From: a virus
Length of the DNA stretch: 64,000 nt
Virus record (IMG/VR): IMGVR_UViG_3300042292_000421
Location: 19,187 to 83,186 of that record
Direction: 5' to 3' (one strand)
This document shows positions 43,038 through 59,071 of the stretch, piece by piece. The notes beneath the pieces are model-generated. The model was not told where the DNA came from. It saw only the letters and a list, made by a program, of their open reading frames with translations, and did not search any database. Every line of letters starts with the position of its first letter. Positions within the stretch are counted from its first letter, which is position 1. Both the position numbers and the translations under genes were made by a program.

Positions 43038-43427
43038 ATGAAAATACATGAATTATTAGAAAACCACCATGGCTCGTTAGCACGGGATAACGGTGATGTA
43101 ATCACAATCGGTGATGCAAGAATTGATATCGATACTAAAGCACAGTTTTCACCAAGACCACAATCTGTTATTGAATTCTTAGTTCCTAAAGAATTACGCG
43201 GACAAGGAATTGGAACACAGTTACTAACAAAAGCTGTAGCAAAGTATCCAATGTTAGGTGGACAAGTAAGCTCTATAGCATCGTTAAAAGTATTTTGGAA
43301 TTTAGGGTTTAGAAATCCAGGAATGCCAGAAGCATCGTTTCAAGATCATGTTGATAGAATGAATGAATACAGTTCAGTGTTTATGGCACGTACTGACGAA
43401 CACGGAGTTCCATATGAAAATACATGA
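43038..43427 (+). CDS. GNAT acetyltransferase-like protein with capsid-targeting-like N-terminus
   Basis: A 129-residue protein. The N-terminus MKIHELLEN resembles the T4 capsid-targeting peptide (MKTYQEFIAEA) that is cut by the prohead protease after an LxE-like site. After it, residues ~48-70 have VPKELRGQGIGTQLLTKAV, the acetyl-CoA-binding motif A of GNAT enzymes, and FWNLGFR is a typical motif B. It lacks parts of the usual GNAT fold, so activity is not certain. Inference: a head-packaged enzyme injected with the DNA. Overlaps the next gene by 14 bases. Confidence 0.65.
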   Translation: MKIHELLENHHGSLARDNGDVITIGDARIDIDTKAQFSPRPQSVIEFLVPKELRGQGIGTQLLTKAVAKYPMLGGQVSSIASLKVFWNLGFRNPGMPEASFQDHVDRMNEYSSVFMARTDEHGVPYENT

Positions 43428-43818
43428 AATAATCTCTGAAGAAATTAAAACAAGACTTGATGCCAAATGCTGGAAAGGCAAACATAAAGAAGGTACTAAA
43501 GTAAAAGGTGGTACTAGAGTTAACAACTGTGTGCCAAATGAATCAGTAGATGAAACAGCAGCATGGCAGAAGAAATCAGGAAAGAACAAAAACGGTGGAT
43601 TGAATGCTAAAGGTGTTGCTAGTTATCGTAAAGAACATCCTGGAAGTAAATTACAAACTGCAGTAACTACTAAACCAAGTAAACTTAAACCTGGAAGTAA
43701 AGATGCAAAACGCCGTAAGAGTTTTTGTGCAAGAATGGGCGGTATGGAAGGTCCTATGAAAGACGAAAAAGGTAAACCAACTAGAAAAGCATTAGCATTG
43801 AGAAAATGGAATTGCTAA
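43414..43818 (+). CDS. Head-associated-type protein with DUF6321-like C-terminus
   Basis: A 134-residue basic protein. It starts MKIHEIISEE (capsid-targeting-like). It then has a Cys-containing segment DAKCWKGKHKEGTKVKGG. The C-terminal ~75 residues (KNGGLNAKGVASYR, FCARMGGMEGP, TRKALALRKWNC) match a domain common in T4-like marine phages, often attached to structural proteins. The start at 43414 was chosen over 43363 because it restores the shared N-terminus. Role unknown; late and probably in the virion. Confidence 0.65.
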   Translation: MKIHEIISEEIKTRLDAKCWKGKHKEGTKVKGGTRVNNCVPNESVDETAAWQKKSGKNKNGGLNAKGVASYRKEHPGSKLQTAVTTKPSKLKPGSKDAKRRKSFCARMGGMEGPMKDEKGKPTRKALALRKWNC

Positions 43819-43826
43819 GTTAAATT

Positions 43827-44435
43827 ATGAAAATACAAGAAATTATAAACGAGGCTCACAATCGTGGTGATATGAAGTCGGTGCTAACTGCAAGAGGATA
43901 TAAGTTGTTAGGAACTGGATATTATGCAACTGTTTGGCAAGCACCAAATGGAACAATTTTAAAAGTGTTTTCTGCAAGTGAAGAACAAGATTATCATGAT
44001 AAAACTTGGTTAGCACCTAATTATAAACAGTATCCTGACGATCTAAAAGATTTTTTAATGTTCTATCATTATGTTAAGCAACATCCGAGTCCGTATCTTC
44101 CAAAATTTGGAAAACTTAAACGTGTAACAGTTGATAATCGTGAATATGTTATTGTAACAACTGAACCATTATCAGCAACTAGTACTAATCCAAAAACTGA
44201 AGATGCGTTTAGGTCTATAATAGTTAATGGCGGAGCTACTACATGGGAAGGGATAATTGAGGATAATCCAAGAGATGTTGACATATTAAATAAGTATGGT
44301 CCAAGGACATTTATGCCAGTTGCATTATTAGCCGCACATCTTAGTAGTATAAGTCCAACTTGGGATTTCTCAGATCATTTATCTAGAAATATAATGTTTC
44401 GTGGTGATATTCCAATAATTAATGATCCATGGTAA
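43827..44435 (+). CDS. Protein-kinase-like fold with capsid-targeting-like N-terminus
   Basis: A 202-residue protein starting MKIQEIINEA, very like the T4 internal-protein leader. The rest shows kinase-fold landmarks: a glycine loop (LGTGYYATVW, residues ~27-36), ILKVF with the ATP-binding Lys, a hinge-like VIVTTEPL, the catalytic loop WDFSDHLSRNIM (Asp and Asn in D-x4-N) and the metal Asp in INDPW. The form is close to small phage kinases and aminoglycoside-kinase-like folds. Inference: a packaged, injected kinase. Terminator follows at 44449. Confidence 0.65.
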   Translation: MKIQEIINEAHNRGDMKSVLTARGYKLLGTGYYATVWQAPNGTILKVFSASEEQDYHDKTWLAPNYKQYPDDLKDFLMFYHYVKQHPSPYLPKFGKLKRVTVDNREYVIVTTEPLSATSTNPKTEDAFRSIIVNGGATTWEGIIEDNPRDVDILNKYGPRTFMPVALLAAHLSSISPTWDFSDHLSRNIMFRGDIPIINDPW

Positions 44436-44448
44436 AGAGTCAATAAAA

Positions 44449-44468
44449 AAGCTGCCCTAGGGCAGCTT
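44449..44468. terminator. Bidirectional terminator (kinase gene / tmRNA)
   Basis: AAGCTGCCCT / AGGGCAGCTT perfect palindrome; a run of six T on the minus strand makes it a strong terminator for tmRNA and it also ends the + strand kinase-like gene. Confidence 0.85.
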
Positions 44469-44469
44469 A

Positions 44470-44860
44470 GTTGTATTTTGGTTAATAAGGCATACATGCC
44501 CCAGAGCGGTAGTTTCTTAAGCTACCATGTCAGCTGCTTCCAAAGAGAAGTCAACTGTCATATACTCGAATTTAGATGCTTTTGCGTCTATAAGTTTTGC
44601 GCTGTTTAGGACAGTCACCTCACCTGTTGCCGTCTCCATTATCTCACCAAGTCGAATCCAATTCATCCCCATTATAAAACACACTATCACTTCCCATTTG
44701 AGGGGCAGGAAGTCTACGGCTGTTGCCCCACTCCGATACCTCTAATGTGTTTTATGGTGGAGATGTGGGGTTTCGAACCCCAGTGTTTGATGCCGTCACT
44801 TTGAAGGAATTACAACAATAATAAACACACTAAAATATTTAATGTGCTTATTATTGTTAA
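44470..44860 (-). ncRNA. ssrA: tmRNA, circularly permuted (two-piece)
   Basis: The acceptor piece comes first (T arm with GGGTTCGAAACCC, then CATCTCC and ACCA at 44765-44755). It is followed by an intervening hairpin (TAAAACACA.../TGTGTTTTA, removed on maturation) and the coding piece starting GGGGATGAATTGGATTCGAC at 44670. GGGGATG pairs with CATCTCC. The best tag frame (44600-44517) starts GCAAAACTT, encodes 27 residues and ends ...EAADMVA before TAA. That is long and unlike the usual ALAA end, but still hydrophobic-small at its terminus. tmRNA rescues stalled ribosomes and tags products for ClpXP. Permuted tmRNAs are typical of alphaproteobacteria and some other groups. Confidence 0.88.
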
Positions 44861-47102: not shown

Positions 47103-47384
47103 ATGCATGAAGTATTTAAACTTATAGGTGAGTTAGGCTTTCCTATCGCAGTAGCATTTGCTGGTGGGTATTTCGTATACCTAACCATTAAGCTATTGTT
47201 AGGTGGAGTGTTAGGAAGTATCAAAGGAATGGCTGGAATCATTGTAGCATTAGATAACCGCGTTAAGACAATGAATCATGACGTCATCCGCATCGACACG
47301 ATTGTATCAAATGCATTAGGGTTAAAACCAGATGTAGAACGTATATCGCGTGCTGATGGGAAAAATGATGCTCGCAGGGACTAA
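47103..47384 (+). CDS. Membrane-anchored small protein, holin-like (93 aa)
   Basis: One membrane segment (residues ~10-35, LGFPIAVAFAGGYFVYLTIK) followed by a helix with VALDNRVKTMNHDVIRID. It is a paralogue of the 47580 gene: the two share GFPI, a glycine-rich membrane segment and the LDxRxxxxxxDxIRxxxxV helix. Similar membrane-plus-coil proteins in phages are annotated as holin or tail-associated proteins. Function not proven. Confidence 0.55.
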   Translation: MHEVFKLIGELGFPIAVAFAGGYFVYLTIKLLLGGVLGSIKGMAGIIVALDNRVKTMNHDVIRIDTIVSNALGLKPDVERISRADGKNDARRD

Positions 47385-47395
47385 AAGGAATTAGT

Positions 47396-47593
47396 ATGCA
47401 TTATTTAGATTATGTGTGGCAACTGTTTGAGTTTGGAATGATCTTAGATGAAGAGATTGATCTTGATAGTTTAGGATGGGAAGATGGTTCTTATTTTAGA
47501 TTAGACCGTACAACTGATGGTAGTCGTCCAGTTTTAAGAAAAGTTAAAGTAATTAAAAAATATACCCCGGGGGAAGAGAATGGATCCGAGTGA
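47396..47593 (+). CDS. Small protein between the membrane paralogues (65 aa)
   Basis: Starts MHYLDYVWQLFEFGMILDEE; acidic, then a basic tail (RKVKVIKKYTPG). Overlaps the next gene by 14 bases; AGGAATTAGT ribosome site. Function unknown. Confidence 0.5.
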   Translation: MHYLDYVWQLFEFGMILDEEIDLDSLGWEDGSYFRLDRTTDGSRPVLRKVKVIKKYTPGEENGSE

Positions 47594-47969
47594 ATTAGCT
47601 GGAGTTGTAAATAAGTACGGTTTTCCTATTGTTATGGCAGTCGGAATGGGACTAATTATAAAATACGTGTGGGAATGGGCAACTAAAGAAGTTAAGCCGG
47701 TTATTAGTGACGCTAACACTGTACTAATTGCACTCATTGATCGTATTCGTATGTTAGATAATGATTTAATCAGATTAACTCAAAAGGTAAATACCGTATT
47801 ACATTTACGTGGTAAAATTATTGAAAGTGATCGTGTACTTGAACAAGTTAAAGTAGAGCGTGAAGCATCTAAACAATTTGACAAAGCTGTTCGTATGGAC
47901 GATCCTAAACCGCCAAAGAAGAAAGCAAAATCTGAAGACGATAATACTGCAGCAGCTGGAGAAAGTTAA
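47580..47969 (+). CDS. Membrane-anchored coiled-coil protein, holin-like (129 aa)
   Basis: One membrane helix at residues ~14-32 (GFPIVMAVGMGLIIKYVWEW), then a long coiled coil (IALIDRIRMLDNDLIRLTQKV) and a charged, low-complexity tail (PKPPKKKAKSEDD). Larger paralogue of the 47103 gene. Located in the late + strand run. Function unknown; a holin or a membrane-tethered structural protein are both possible. Confidence 0.55.
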   Translation: MDPSELAGVVNKYGFPIVMAVGMGLIIKYVWEWATKEVKPVISDANTVLIALIDRIRMLDNDLIRLTQKVNTVLHLRGKIIESDRVLEQVKVEREASKQFDKAVRMDDPKPPKKKAKSEDDNTAAAGES

Positions 47970-47971
47970 GA

Positions 47972-48214
47972 ATGAGAATAAGAGAGCTATTAGAAAGTAT
48001 TGAATTAGATGAAACTAAAATACCAACTAGTAAAGAATTAAGAAAAGCGTTACTAAAAAAAGGTTATACTTCACATGAAGGCGGAGAACATGAGAAGTTT
48101 TATGCACCTGATAATTCGCATCATATTGCAATACCTCGTGGGTCAAAACCATTAAGTATTGGCCTTGCAAGGTCTGTTATGAAAAAAGCTGGACTTACTG
48201 ACGCTGATTTTTAA
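47972..48214 (+). CDS. HicA-like mRNA-interferase with capsid-targeting-like N-terminus
   Basis: An 80-residue protein starting MRIRELLESIE, then a HicA-like dsRBD fold: SKELRKALLKKGY, GGEHEKFYAP (the catalytic His; GSH in classical HicA), HHIAIPRGSKPLSIG and LARSVMKKAGL. HicA toxins cut mRNA. There is no HicB antitoxin next to it. With the leader, the simplest inference is a toxin-fold protein packaged into the head and injected. The His substitution context is slightly degenerate, so activity is uncertain. Confidence 0.68.
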   Translation: MRIRELLESIELDETKIPTSKELRKALLKKGYTSHEGGEHEKFYAPDNSHHIAIPRGSKPLSIGLARSVMKKAGLTDADF

Positions 48215-48811
48215 TTATTTCTCTGTGGCGATAAACTCGTTATTGTGAAATCTGCGCTTGTGTTGCCCAATAGTGTTTATAGTAACTTCTTTACTGCAGA
48301 TTTCACATGTTACACGCTGTCTCGGTACGCTCTTAGGCTTACGCATTTTTTGTTTAGTCTCATCACTATGATGACATCCTGCAAAAGTACCAGGTTTCCC
48401 AAATCTAGGATTTAATTTACCAGGTTGTGATCCTTTTCCTTTTCTATTAGCACTCATTAATGCTCTTGCTTCTTCAGTATGGGTTTTATTAAACATGCCG
48501 TTCTTTTCTCCTGATGTGTCACAACCGCAATTTCCTTCGCCACCTAGTGACATATTATATTCTGGTTTAAGCTTTTCGATCCAAAACGTTTCAACAAGTC
48601 CTAATTCATTTAAATCGTTAGCATTTGTTTCTTCTAACAATTCTATTTTGAAGTTTTCTTCTCCGTATTTACGTATAGCTTTATGCAGTATCCAGGGTTT
48701 ATTCCTACGGGCATCTGCTTTATGCCCTGAAAATCTAACTTCTAATGTTTTTGAAGTCATACCCACATATCTTTTTTCGTTAATTAAATTAGTTATAATG
48801 TAAATCCTCAT
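48215..48811 (-). CDS. GIY-YIG homing endonuclease with NUMOD3 repeats
   Basis: A 198-residue protein. RIYIITNLINEKRYVGMT is the GIY-YIG core, with RFSGHKADAR and the VETFWIEKL helix holding the catalytic Glu. NUMOD3-type repeats (GMFNKTHTEEARALMSA, NPRFGKPGTF) and a C-terminal CEICSKEV...HKRRFH zinc finger follow. The start at 48811 sits five bases after a GATAAATA box without a Shine-Dalgarno. It lies just after the cyclase gene (8-base gap), a typical homing insertion. Confidence 0.78.
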   Translation of the reverse strand: MRIYIITNLINEKRYVGMTSKTLEVRFSGHKADARRNKPWILHKAIRKYGEENFKIELLEETNANDLNELGLVETFWIEKLKPEYNMSLGGEGNCGCDTSGEKNGMFNKTHTEEARALMSANRKGKGSQPGKLNPRFGKPGTFAGCHHSDETKQKMRKPKSVPRQRVTCEICSKEVTINTIGQHKRRFHNNEFIATEK

Positions 48812-48816
48812 ACATC

Positions 48817-48824
48817 TATTTATC
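48817..48824 (-). promoter_or_regulatory. Late-type box before GIY-YIG endonuclease
   Basis: GATAAATA on the minus strand, five bases before the start at 48811; no Shine-Dalgarno, so a leaderless mRNA is likely. Confidence 0.5.
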
Positions 48825-48830
48825 AAACCT

Positions 48831-50879
48831 TTATTTTGAGGTTGCTATAAAGACCCCATTCCAATCTTTAGGCAACTCTTGAGTTTTTTGGAATTCACAC
48901 CTTTCAATCCACATATCGTAGTAATTTGCCATTTTCCCATCAAACTTATCTTTAAGCTGATTACATATTTTAATGGCAGAATCAAATTGTTGTGCTCTAT
49001 ATAACTCATGCATTTTATTGTGAGATTCTTTAGCAGTAACATATTCAGGTACAACGTCATCTAACACAGTATAAATTCCAACTCCGACACTTTTACCTTT
49101 AACAGCTAAATCATCAATCTTTAGGAAGAAAAATTCGTTATCACAATAACGTACAGTATTTTCTCCAACTAACAGCACACAACCGTATTCTTTACATTTA
49201 CTTTCTATACGAGCAGTTGTTGAAACAGCATCTCCTAACACATCGTAACTATGTCGTTCTGTTGACCCCATTTCTCCAATATATCCTAATCCGGTATTAA
49301 TACCAGCTCCCATCTTTACACCTGGACGTCCTGCAGCTTCAAGGAGTTTACTATATTCTTTAACAGCTTTAACCATTTTGAGTCCTGTTGCTACTGCAGT
49401 TGATGGATGACTAGGATCATCAATTGGAGCATTGTGAATATGCATAGATGCATCTCCGATATATTTAATAACCATACCATTAGCTTCTAAAATTGGCTTC
49501 GTAATAGAATCCATATAACCGTTCATTACTTTAGTTAAACCGCCAACATCGTCTCCAAATGACTCACCTAATGGAGTAAATCCACGCAAATCCGAAAAGC
49601 AAATACTTATTTCCTTTTTAACACCACGTTTAATTAGTTCTGGATCTTTTTGTAGCATTTCGACTACTTCTTTAGAGCAGTAACCTGCAAATTGTTTTTT
49701 GATAGCTAGTTTTTGTGTTAGTTCAGAAACAAACTTAACAGTATAAGCATGAGCATACACAAAGCCAAATCCAGCCACAACAAACGTTGCATCCAGTAAA
49801 ATGCTATAATTGGTGAAAACATAGCTAGCAGCATAAGGAATGCCGCCGATAAACATAATAATAGGAATAAAGCCATAACGCCATCTCGTTAAAAATATAG
49901 AACCAATAGCTAGTGCAATAAATGCTAATAGTTCTGCCCCATCTGCGTAGTCCGGTCTAACAATGTTAGTACCAGATACTAGTGTATCTAATACAGCACT
50001 TTGAAGTTCATGAGGAAACCGTTCCCCTGTAGCTGTTGCCACTGGGTTGTTGAGTCCTCTTGCGGTAAGACCAACAATAATGATTCGTCCCTCAAAGGAG
50101 TCTGGAAGACTAGTGATTGAATAGCTTGCGGGCTTATGTGACCAGTCAATCCAAATTCTACTGAACGGGTCGGTTGCAATTTTTCCAAACTTAGGAATTC
50201 TGACAGCTTCGACTCCAAACTCTGAGATTTTAACTTGGAAACTTGGGTCTCCACTTGCGACTCGTAAAGTGTCAAGTCCAAGTGACGGGTATAACTTTCC
50301 TTTTGATGATACAACCATTGGCATTCTTCGTACAACGCCATCGAGTTCTGGGAAAGTGTTAACAATACCAGCACCTGCAGTAACATCGTTAAGTTGTTTA
50401 GTATTTGCTTGTATGTTTTCATAATTTACAGTAAATGGTTGATCTTCATTTCCTATTACACTAACACCTGGGCGAAATGCAATAGTATCTAATTTTACAG
50501 GTTCGTTAGTTGCGGTCTGCGGTAGTACAACAGGAGAAATTGAAATAACGTTAGCTAAGTCTGCATCTCTTTTAAATCTATCTGCATCTGGCATAAAGAT
50601 ATTAAACACTACTAATCCTGCACCTCTAGCATATAAGTCTTCAATTATCTGTGCGTATATGTCGCGAGAGAACGGAAATTGCCCATACTTCTCTAATGCA
50701 GCATCATCTATGTTTACCGTAGTAACAGATGAGTCTTGTATTGGTTTACTTGTAATTAATGTATCAAAGTATCTTAGTCGCATACTTTCTACAAATGACG
50801 GATCTGCTATACGTACACCCGCTACTAACATAACTGTTAGTAGCGCAGTCCAGGGGTTTAATAATATTTTTTTAATCAT
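48831..50879 (-). CDS. CHASE2-domain adenylate cyclase (membrane receptor type)
   Basis: A 682-residue class III cyclase. Order: one membrane helix (residues ~8-25), an extracytoplasmic CHASE2 sensor (~45-300), three helices (~313-385) and a cyclase domain (~420-600). Metal residues D430 (FSDLRGFT) and D476 (KYIGD) are present, as are the adenine-specifying K472 and D546. The transition-state Arg (R557) is kept, but the usual Asn of VNxAxR is Ser (S553), which may lower activity. It would make cAMP in response to a periplasmic signal. It lies next to the glycosyltransferase gene, with its start overlapping that gene's stop (ATGA), and near the curli cluster. Confidence 0.85.
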   Translation of the reverse strand: MIKKILLNPWTALLTVMLVAGVRIADPSFVESMRLRYFDTLITSKPIQDSSVTTVNIDDAALEKYGQFPFSRDIYAQIIEDLYARGAGLVVFNIFMPDADRFKRDADLANVISISPVVLPQTATNEPVKLDTIAFRPGVSVIGNEDQPFTVNYENIQANTKQLNDVTAGAGIVNTFPELDGVVRRMPMVVSSKGKLYPSLGLDTLRVASGDPSFQVKISEFGVEAVRIPKFGKIATDPFSRIWIDWSHKPASYSITSLPDSFEGRIIIVGLTARGLNNPVATATGERFPHELQSAVLDTLVSGTNIVRPDYADGAELLAFIALAIGSIFLTRWRYGFIPIIMFIGGIPYAASYVFTNYSILLDATFVVAGFGFVYAHAYTVKFVSELTQKLAIKKQFAGYCSKEVVEMLQKDPELIKRGVKKEISICFSDLRGFTPLGESFGDDVGGLTKVMNGYMDSITKPILEANGMVIKYIGDASMHIHNAPIDDPSHPSTAVATGLKMVKAVKEYSKLLEAAGRPGVKMGAGINTGLGYIGEMGSTERHSYDVLGDAVSTTARIESKCKEYGCVLLVGENTVRYCDNEFFFLKIDDLAVKGKSVGVGIYTVLDDVVPEYVTAKESHNKMHELYRAQQFDSAIKICNQLKDKFDGKMANYYDMWIERCEFQKTQELPKDWNGVFIATSK

Positions 50880-53862: not shown

Positions 53863-55020
53863 TTATTGCCCTTGTTGTACTTGAATTGGTGCGCATCCTC
53901 CTACTGTAGCACAATTAAAGTTTATTGAGTAATACTGTTGAGTAGCACCACTCTGTTGTAGACTCAAGTCTACTGGTTGTCCTGATAAGGTAATATCAGT
54001 CATATGATTTGCTGCACCTTGTTGTAATATATCAACATGTTTATTACCACCAGATAATTCAATATTAGCATAATAATTTCCACTACCCTTTTGTTGTAAA
54101 ATTAAACTGTTGTTATTATCAGTTATATTTATAAAAGCACCTTTACTAAACCCGGCAGTATATGTATCTTGATCTATACTAAGCAAATTAGAATTGCCAT
54201 TTACTGTTAAGTCAATAAAGTTTACTTGTAAGTTATTGGCTGCAGTTTGATTAATAGTAGTAGTGTTAGACGAGCCATTACTGCTGTAATTTACATAATT
54301 GTTGTTAGTACCTTTTTGATCAATTGTAATCTTGTTATTGTTTCCTAACTGATCTATATATACTTGATTGTCAGTAGTTGATCTAGATGTAAAAGCCGTT
54401 ACTTTTGCAGTATTAGCAGGAGCGGCATTAAATGAAGATCCACTGCCACCGCAGCAATATACACTTGGAAACGTAGTCCATGGTAACGTACTTCCTAAGT
54501 CAATGCTAGTAGTAGGATCATTTTGATCGTACAAGAATGTTATTTCTGCAATTTGCATAGAGTTAGCAGCACCTGCGTCTTTAACAATTGGAAACGTTAT
54601 ATTATAATACACGTATGCTTCTGTATTGTTAATAGGGTATACTGGACTAACTGCAAGTCTATTATTAGGTAATGCAATAAGTTGAGAAGTTATTAACGTC
54701 CAACCTCCTGATGTATCATTACTTCCAAATAAACTAAAACTAGCAGGATCTCGTTCTGGAGAATCATTTGCTGTAGTAAATTGTACTTGACTAATAACTT
54801 TACCTTGTGACAGTTTAAGCATAACACCTGCACTAAGTTTATCAAAGTTAAGATACTTAGTTCCGGGATTACCGTCAAACGCATTACTAAAGAACTCACC
54901 ACCTGGACTATTCATACTTGATGGAATATATCCTAACATTAATGGTCTAAGTGGTACATAGTTAGGAACTGCATCTACATTTGAATACCATAACAACAAT
55001 ATGAAAAATAAAATTCTCAT
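53863..55020 (-). CDS. Secreted curlin-repeat protein with discoidin-like domain
   Basis: A 385-residue protein. Signal peptide (MRILFFILLLWYSNVDA). Residues ~30-180 look like a discoidin/F5-8-type beta-sandwich (GGEFFSNAFDGNPGTKYLNF, LIALPNN). From ~215 to 380 there are curlin-like repeats with N-x-x-x-I-x-Q-x-G-x-x-N spacing (VYIDQLGNNNKITIDQKGTN). That suggests a sugar-binding head fused to an amyloid-forming stalk. Likely exported through the CsgG-like pore encoded nearby; overlaps the FecR gene by four bases. Confidence 0.72.
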   Translation of the reverse strand: MRILFFILLLWYSNVDAVPNYVPLRPLMLGYIPSSMNSPGGEFFSNAFDGNPGTKYLNFDKLSAGVMLKLSQGKVISQVQFTTANDSPERDPASFSLFGSNDTSGGWTLITSQLIALPNNRLAVSPVYPINNTEAYVYYNITFPIVKDAGAANSMQIAEITFLYDQNDPTTSIDLGSTLPWTTFPSVYCCGGSGSSFNAAPANTAKVTAFTSRSTTDNQVYIDQLGNNNKITIDQKGTNNNYVNYSSNGSSNTTTINQTAANNLQVNFIDLTVNGNSNLLSIDQDTYTAGFSKGAFINITDNNNSLILQQKGSGNYYANIELSGGNKHVDILQQGAANHMTDITLSGQPVDLSLQQSGATQQYYSINFNCATVGGCAPIQVQQGQ

Positions 55021-58279: not shown

Positions 58280-59071
58280 ATGAGAATTTCTGAATTACTT
58301 GAAAATGATAGACAATTAGGACTTCCGTTTCAAGATGAACCTACAGATTTACAACCAAGAGTAAAACAAAAACGTGTTAAAAAAGACTACGGTCAGACAC
58401 CTGAAAGACCAGAATTACGATTTAGTTTAGAAGATCATCCAGAATTAAAAGCTGCAGCTCAAGCTGTTAAAGCTGGAAAGATGTCTAGAGCAGAATATAC
58501 AGCATTAGTAAAAAAATATAAACCAGTAAGACCGTATGATTATGTTCCTACACCTGCAAGTGAAAAAGATATGAATCGCGGGTTAGATGCTGATAAACGT
58601 CATAAGATTAATTCACATATTGCAGACGGTGATGTAGTGCAATTACGATTAGACATCCCTGCGTATAATCATAAAAATGTTTGGGTTCCAACTATTCACA
58701 ATAAGTCCGGAACTCCTATTTCTCATAGAGGAGCAGCAGTCATTAATAATGTAACCATTAAGTTACCGCAAAAAGGTTCAATGAACATTGCAACAGGCGA
58801 AACTACTAAAGTTCCAATTGCTACTCTAAAAGGTTTTTGGGAAGAAGTATCGCCTGAAGATGCAAAGACAGAAGCAATGGCTGCGTTACATGATAAGAAT
58901 TGGGCTCAGGTAGGTATGGATCCTAAACGACATGCATTCTTCTATGATAGAAAAACTGAAAGACCTATTATTGGTGGATCACGTGCTGTACAAGTAGGAC
59001 CGTTAGTGTTAATTAAAGATCCTATCTATGACGATGATGGTGAATATATTTACGAACGAAATAAAAGATAA
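58280..59071 (+). CDS. Putative packaged protein with LPD-type C-terminal domain
   Basis: A 263-residue protein starting MRISELLEND, the same leader type as the genes at 43038-47972. Residues ~20-90 are basic and disordered-looking. The C-terminal ~60 residues (GMDPKRHAFFYDRKTERPI, SRAVQVGPLVLIKDP) match the large-polyvalent-protein-associated domain that occurs in phage and plasmid proteins thought to be injected into hosts. This supports the packaged-protein idea. Late box and ribosome site are both present. Confidence 0.65.
   Translation: MRISELLENDRQLGLPFQDEPTDLQPRVKQKRVKKDYGQTPERPELRFSLEDHPELKAAAQAVKAGKMSRAEYTALVKKYKPVRPYDYVPTPASEKDMNRGLDADKRHKINSHIADGDVVQLRLDIPAYNHKNVWVPTIHNKSGTPISHRGAAVINNVTIKLPQKGSMNIATGETTKVPIATLKGFWEEVSPEDAKTEAMAALHDKNWAQVGMDPKRHAFFYDRKTERPIIGGSRAVQVGPLVLIKDPIYDDDGEYIYERNKR

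Follow-up and report, generated by a model that had tools for sequence, protein, structure and literature searches.

Why would a phage carry a HicA toxin gene that lacks a HicB partner and opens with a short extension lying outside the toxin fold? The gene in question is found in a 64,000-nt stretch of viral DNA (the window), part of an 83-kb IMG/VR record (IMGVR_UViG_3300042292_000421). The ORF starts with an ATG at 47972 and its TAA stop ends at 48214 (Table 1); the reverse strand of the locus contains no ORF. Its product, MRIRELLESIELDETKIPTSKELRKALLKKGYTSHEGGEHEKFYAPDNSHHIAIPRGSKPLSIGLARSVMKKAGLTDADF in full, has a complete HicA domain behind an N-terminal extension of 17 residues. The protein matches Pfam PF07927 (E 4.6e-9, 36.7 bits against a cut-off of 27), as do all six members of an alignment of its homologues (A1), and PHROG 353, annotated “toxin” (E 6e-12); an NCBIfam search gave no match. 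The relatives retrieved from a phage collection are all distant and all from Streptococcus phages (E about 0.01), and a scan of genome contigs with narrow patterns found no close bacterial HicA. The phage protein is a member of the HicA family.

Table 1. Features of the hicA locus and of other leader-bearing genes in the window.
Feature	Position	Strand	Basis or remarks
GNAT-like protein, leader MKIHELLEN	43038..43427	+	
DUF6321 / PHROG 727 protein, leader MKIHEIISEE	43414..43818	+	
Kinase-like protein (weak match), 202 aa, leader MKIQEIINEA	43827..44435	+	
p93 (PHROG 18771), first gene of the conserved operon before hicA	47103..47384	+	
p65, operon gene	47396..47593	+	In many relatives without hicA
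p129, p93 paralogue, last conserved gene before the variable hicA slot	47580..47969	+	
Possible hicA ribosome-binding site (GGAG) within the end of p129	47958..47961	+	Sequence; ~9 nt before the ATG
hicA-like ORF with N-terminal capsid-targeting-like leader	47972..48214	+	80 aa; profile and fold matches
HicA leader and linker, codons 1-17 (MRIRELLESIELDETKI)	47972..48022	+	Outside the fold; common leader motif
Candidate gp21-type cleavage after E8 (LLE/S)	codon 47993-47995	+	L/I-X-E rule
Candidate gp21-type cleavage after E14 (LDE/T)	codon 48011-48013	+	L/I-X-E rule
HicA domain, residues 21-75	48032..48196	+	PF07927, profile positions 2-58 of 58
G38-E39-H40, Gly-x-His of the HicA active site	48083..48091	+	Alignment to 6g26/4c26 and 1whz
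263-aa protein of unknown fold, leader MRISELLEN	58280..59071	+	

The predicted structure agrees with this assignment. The AlphaFold2 model adopts an alpha-beta-beta-beta-alpha, dsRBD-like fold (mean pLDDT 80; 83-91 for residues 21-80), and its top PDB matches in Foldseek are HicA proteins (probability 1.00); the solved HicA structures come from Thermus, Burkholderia, Streptococcus, Yersinia and E. coli, with VIA Z values of 9.2 (1whz), 8.5 (6g26), 7.7 (5yrz), 7.6 (4p78) and 7.4 (6hpb). Annotated as a hypothetical protein, 1whz is taken as a HicA because of its sequence match. The structural alignments cover about residues 14-80; therefore, the first 13-17 residues are extra, and residues 1-16 are not part of the HicA fold. 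H40 is aligned to the His that was replaced by Ala in Burkholderia pseudomallei HicA (6g26/4c26), with G38 two residues before it; these two correspond to the catalytic His of HicA toxins and to the Gly on which toxicity depends (PMC11594946). A second conserved region differs, reading IPRG in the phage protein versus VPFH in 1whz and VPHP in BpsHicA. The first-pass annotation had described a HicA-like protein with a dsRBD fold and a catalytic-type His, and each of these descriptions is borne out by the profile matches, the model and the alignment of H40.

Is this protein maintained, and as what? Eight close viral contigs have a hicA homologue, and two further pairs (L020/L022 and L167/L168) have one with 76-78% identity; L020 and L167 each lie within 372-kb contigs. 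Between divergent pairs, the core has a dN/dS of about 0.16-0.4 (Nei-Gojobori over 63 codons, a rough estimate), and therefore the protein is maintained by purifying selection. G38 and H40 are invariant across seven phage sequences. The Gly-x-His is intact, and RNase activity, judged by what the HicA family does, is probable. Might the protein instead have become a packaged but catalytically inert nucleic-acid-binding component, for example one that binds DNA or RNA in the head? HicA is built on a binding fold, and the internal proteins of phage T4 are basic and DNA-associated (PMC3012670), but the invariance of Gly38 and His40 and the selection on the core make this very unlikely.

Where, then, is the antitoxin? 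The gene closes an operon with the order p93-p65-p129-hicA. The three genes before it are present in many relatives that lack hicA (p65 and p129 in dozens), which rules each of them out as a dedicated antitoxin. A convergent CHASE2 gene follows hicA, directly in two relatives (L008 and L020) and behind a GIY-YIG gene in the window. An unannotated antitoxin gene next to hicA is ruled out by this convergent neighbor together with the conservation of p65 and p129 in the absence of hicA. The HicB profiles PF15919 and PF05534 have no match in the 83-kb record or in a sister jumbo phage of 372 kb (G004); in a second 372-kb contig (L167), PF05534, the only HicB profile searched there, likewise has none. 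No hicB adjoins hicA, so the locus does not form a type II HicAB pair, and the first-pass claim that the toxin comes without HicB stands. An antitoxin that is diverged or unrelated may still be encoded, and the lack of an antitoxin alone is no proof that the toxin is delivered by the virion. The phage protein resembles type II HicA toxins (PF07927; YpHicA3, BpsHicA, EcHicA) in its complete domain, fold and Gly-x-His; it differs from them in having no HicB, in its 17-residue extension and in its setting, an accessory slot in a lytic-type jumbo phage. Mycobacterium phage Adephagia also encodes a HicA, as gp90/gp91 HicAB (PMC11594946), but this phage is temperate, carries the antitoxin, and no leader has been described for its toxin.

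The slot itself is variable. Between p129 and CHASE2, five contigs (L023, L039, L040, L048 and L068) have nothing, and two (L049 and L051) encode a different protein that also bears a leader, MKVKEILEG... (MKVKEILEGLTPKN...). Across a large group of jumbo phages (L019-L096), this junction is hypervariable: as assigned by eye, it is empty or holds hicA, desaturase-like, radical-SAM-like, D-Ala-D-Ala-peptidase-like or secreted proteins. The GIY-YIG homing endonuclease behind hicA (48215-48826, minus strand) has GIY-YIG counterparts at the same place in L004, L005, L021 and L167; two different enzymes of this type (203 and 229 aa) share the spot, and L008 and L020 have neither.

What is the extension for? 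It opens MRIRELLES... and contains two L/I-x-E motifs, LLE/S and LDE/T (a slash marks the candidate cleavage point; variants have A or G behind it). Similar N-termini recur in other genes, with the consensus M[KR]IxE[LI][LI]xE and an L/I-x-E at residues 6-8 or 7-9 in all strict leaders. In a simple ORF set of G004, the pattern M[KR][ILVFM]x[ED][ILFVM][ILMFV]x?E opens 11 of the 562 genes, including the hicA homologue (MRVSEILEG), a count that is partly circular in that the pattern was drawn from leaders in the window and 5 of the 11 are orthologues of window or L008 genes. The controls, which this circularity does not affect, gave no match among 1,369 internal Met positions and a mean of 0.02 for shuffled N-termini. 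A leader profile trained without HicA reaches a maximum of 8.0 over 1,391 internal sites; the three HicA leaders score 16.9, 16.8 and 20.6. The G004 controls and this profile reject a chance match. A secretion signal is argued against by the first ten positions, which are charged throughout and lack a long hydrophobic run.

The proteins behind the leader are unrelated: in G004, they comprise HicA, a GNAT-like protein (a weak Pfam match), a DUF6321 protein, two zincin-like (HELVH) and three kinase-like proteins (both labels assigned by eye and from weak matches) and others that match nothing. Elsewhere, contig L064 has a leader (MKLRELMED) on a 5'-nucleotidase, and two other genomes, G007 and G009, have looser versions such as MRAxEFIxEA. 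Two further G004 genes come close to the leader profile, those with stops at 95890 (MKIREIITPA) and 292257 (MLISELLESI); they may encode additional head-delivered proteins.

That leader and cargo can part company is apparent at the locus of the kinase-like gene at 43827. In L008 (248-1441) and L020, the equivalent position encodes a 397-aa zincin-like protein with the leader MKIQEIISEA. When the window is aligned to L008, 196 of 199 aligned bases agree upstream of the gene and 27 of 30 in its first 10 codons; similarity then falls to chance level and resumes downstream over about 333 bases. With flanks and leader shared and cargo divergent, the switch point is therefore the end of the leader, codon 10.

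In an alternative explanation, HicA is not packaged at all: an orphan toxin would break down transcripts of the host or the phage at a fixed time, its extension having been recombined from a neighboring gene with no role in targeting. The location of hicA in an accessory slot that is empty in some relatives fits this idea, as does the greater number of amino-acid changes in the leader than in the core in distant comparisons; however, the E8 and L12-x-E14 sites are kept in all variants while the flanking residues change, and the profile trained on other leaders fits all three HicA variants. A1 shows no variation in the active site or in either L/I-x-E motif, and neither does L167/L168, whose leader has D in place of E11 yet keeps L12-D13-E14. 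An unpackaged orphan is accordingly judged unlikely, and packaging the better reading of the leader.

Packaging is known from T4, in which ipII and ipIII begin MKTYQEFIAE/A (T4 record). For head entry, IPIII needs no more than its first 10 residues, and the gp21 protease cuts after L/I-X-E (PMC9026906). The T4 internal proteins carry diverse cargo and have only the CTS in common (PMC3012670); they are injected into the host (PMC9391042). The T4 proteins IPI, IPII, IPIII and Alt share with the phage leader genes a leader of ~10 residues with a positively charged residue 2, an acidic residue and two large aliphatic or aromatic residues, a terminal L/I-x-E site and diverse cargo, the sister phage being T4-like and encoding a gp21 protease. 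The differences are in spacing and in cargo: the phage leader, M[KR]IxE[LI][LI], is one residue shorter than MKTYQEFIAE, and the T4 spacing E-[FIL]-[IL]-x-E places the Glu at position 9 whereas HicA has E8, a point against packaging, although six sister leaders have it too; no HicA or other toxin of a toxin-antitoxin system is among the T4 cargos that the cited literature describes.

Do these phages have the protease? A gp21 (PF03420) is encoded in G004 and eight other relatives, and the gp21-bearing 372-kb sister contig also carries the homologous hicA. No gp21 was found in the window's own 83-kb record, a result counted against packaging. In the major capsid protein of G004, YLME/SPTAG stands where T4 has FLTE/A and Methylophilales phage Melnitz has FLSE/AAPT; with LME/S at the T4 cleavage position, the L/I-X-E rule therefore seems valid there, and both HicA sites agree with it. 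The T4 late promoter TATAAATA is no more frequent in the window than expected by chance and is absent upstream of the hicA operon. The packaging leader proposed in the first-pass annotation thus finds support in the genome-wide enrichment, the L/I-x-E site, the gp21 of the sister phage and the leader-preserving cargo swap. We infer, with good support, that HicA is likely to be packaged in the virion.

The wider relationships are also T4-like. The window's CHASE2-cyclase has its relatives in Melnitz and in Pelagibacter phage HTVC008M; both phages are T4-like and assigned to Kyanoviridae in their records. A search with p93 matched hundreds of viral contigs of up to 372 kb. Melnitz and HTVC008M, although close by other genes, lack the strict leader, which speaks against the packaging reading; Melnitz has a looser one, MKKFSEIIEA. 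In the window, a curlin-like repeat protein (53863-55020) and the CHASE2-cyclase (48831-50879) are encoded on the minus strand; Melnitz and HTVC008M likewise have both, and also CsgF and CsgG. A tmRNA with a long tag, AKASKFEYMTVDFSLEAADMVA, is predicted in the window (44426-44847, minus strand) and in G004 (L121:4996-5417), and one is annotated in the Melnitz record. In E. coli, both mRNA and tmRNA are reported targets of HicA; a link between the phage tmRNA and HicA is possible, as a guess.

How could an antitoxin-free RNase serve the phage? We consider it somewhat likely that HicA is a T4-type internal head protein with a HicA-type RNase as its cargo, injected to cleave RNA in the next host. 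The leader would direct HicA into the prohead core late in infection; a gp21-like prohead protease would cut after L/I-x-E (at E8 or E14), so that the head contains a mature HicA of 66-72 residues; this product would be ejected with the phage DNA into the next host; and there, free of antitoxin, it would cleave RNA in the first minutes of infection, with host mRNA or other translation RNAs as the simplest targets. The first four steps (late synthesis, head entry, cleavage and ejection) would follow the T4 precedent, and RNA cleavage that of the HicA family. Action on host RNA after injection is plausible, with the case about evenly balanced; the target RNA and the benefit, be it host shut-off or early counter-defense, are guesses. 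Against the mechanism speaks the harm that an antitoxin-free toxin should do, late in infection, to the cell that makes it; the first-pass argument that no antitoxin is required before injection does not explain how that cell would tolerate the toxin. The producer may be spared if the toxin is sequestered in proheads, if the uncut form has little activity or if synthesis comes late. No report of a virion-delivered HicA was found in the literature on HicA and jumbo phages or on CTS and toxins, with subscription journals little covered.

Counter-defense could also be the whole purpose of injection. Here, HicA would act not on bulk mRNA but against a host HicAB or an RNA-based defense, by occupying HicB or removing a defense RNA. 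T4 offers parallels, as its internal proteins of known function are anti-defense: IPI acts against GmrSD, and IPIII is needed on strain ECOR17 (PMC3012670, PMC9391042). The HicA residues that contact HicB include the active site (PMC11594946), and the phage protein keeps them; a decoy, however, would not need an intact, conserved active site, and this version of events seems fairly unlikely. Returning to HicA as an injected RNase, a broader and more tentative proposal is that aquatic T4-like jumbo phages possess a general head-delivery system, in which a single leader serves cargos swapped by recombination behind the cleavage site, and HicA would be a pre-loaded RNase weapon that acts before any phage gene is expressed.

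If this is correct, the phage has made the toxin of a toxin-antitoxin system into an effector delivered by the virion, with the phage head doing the job of secretion systems, and antitoxin-less toxins in phages would have a function-based reason to exist. By means of the leader, a simple sequence tag, the injected proteins of uncultivated jumbo phages could be recognized from genomes alone, making the identity of these proteins directly testable.
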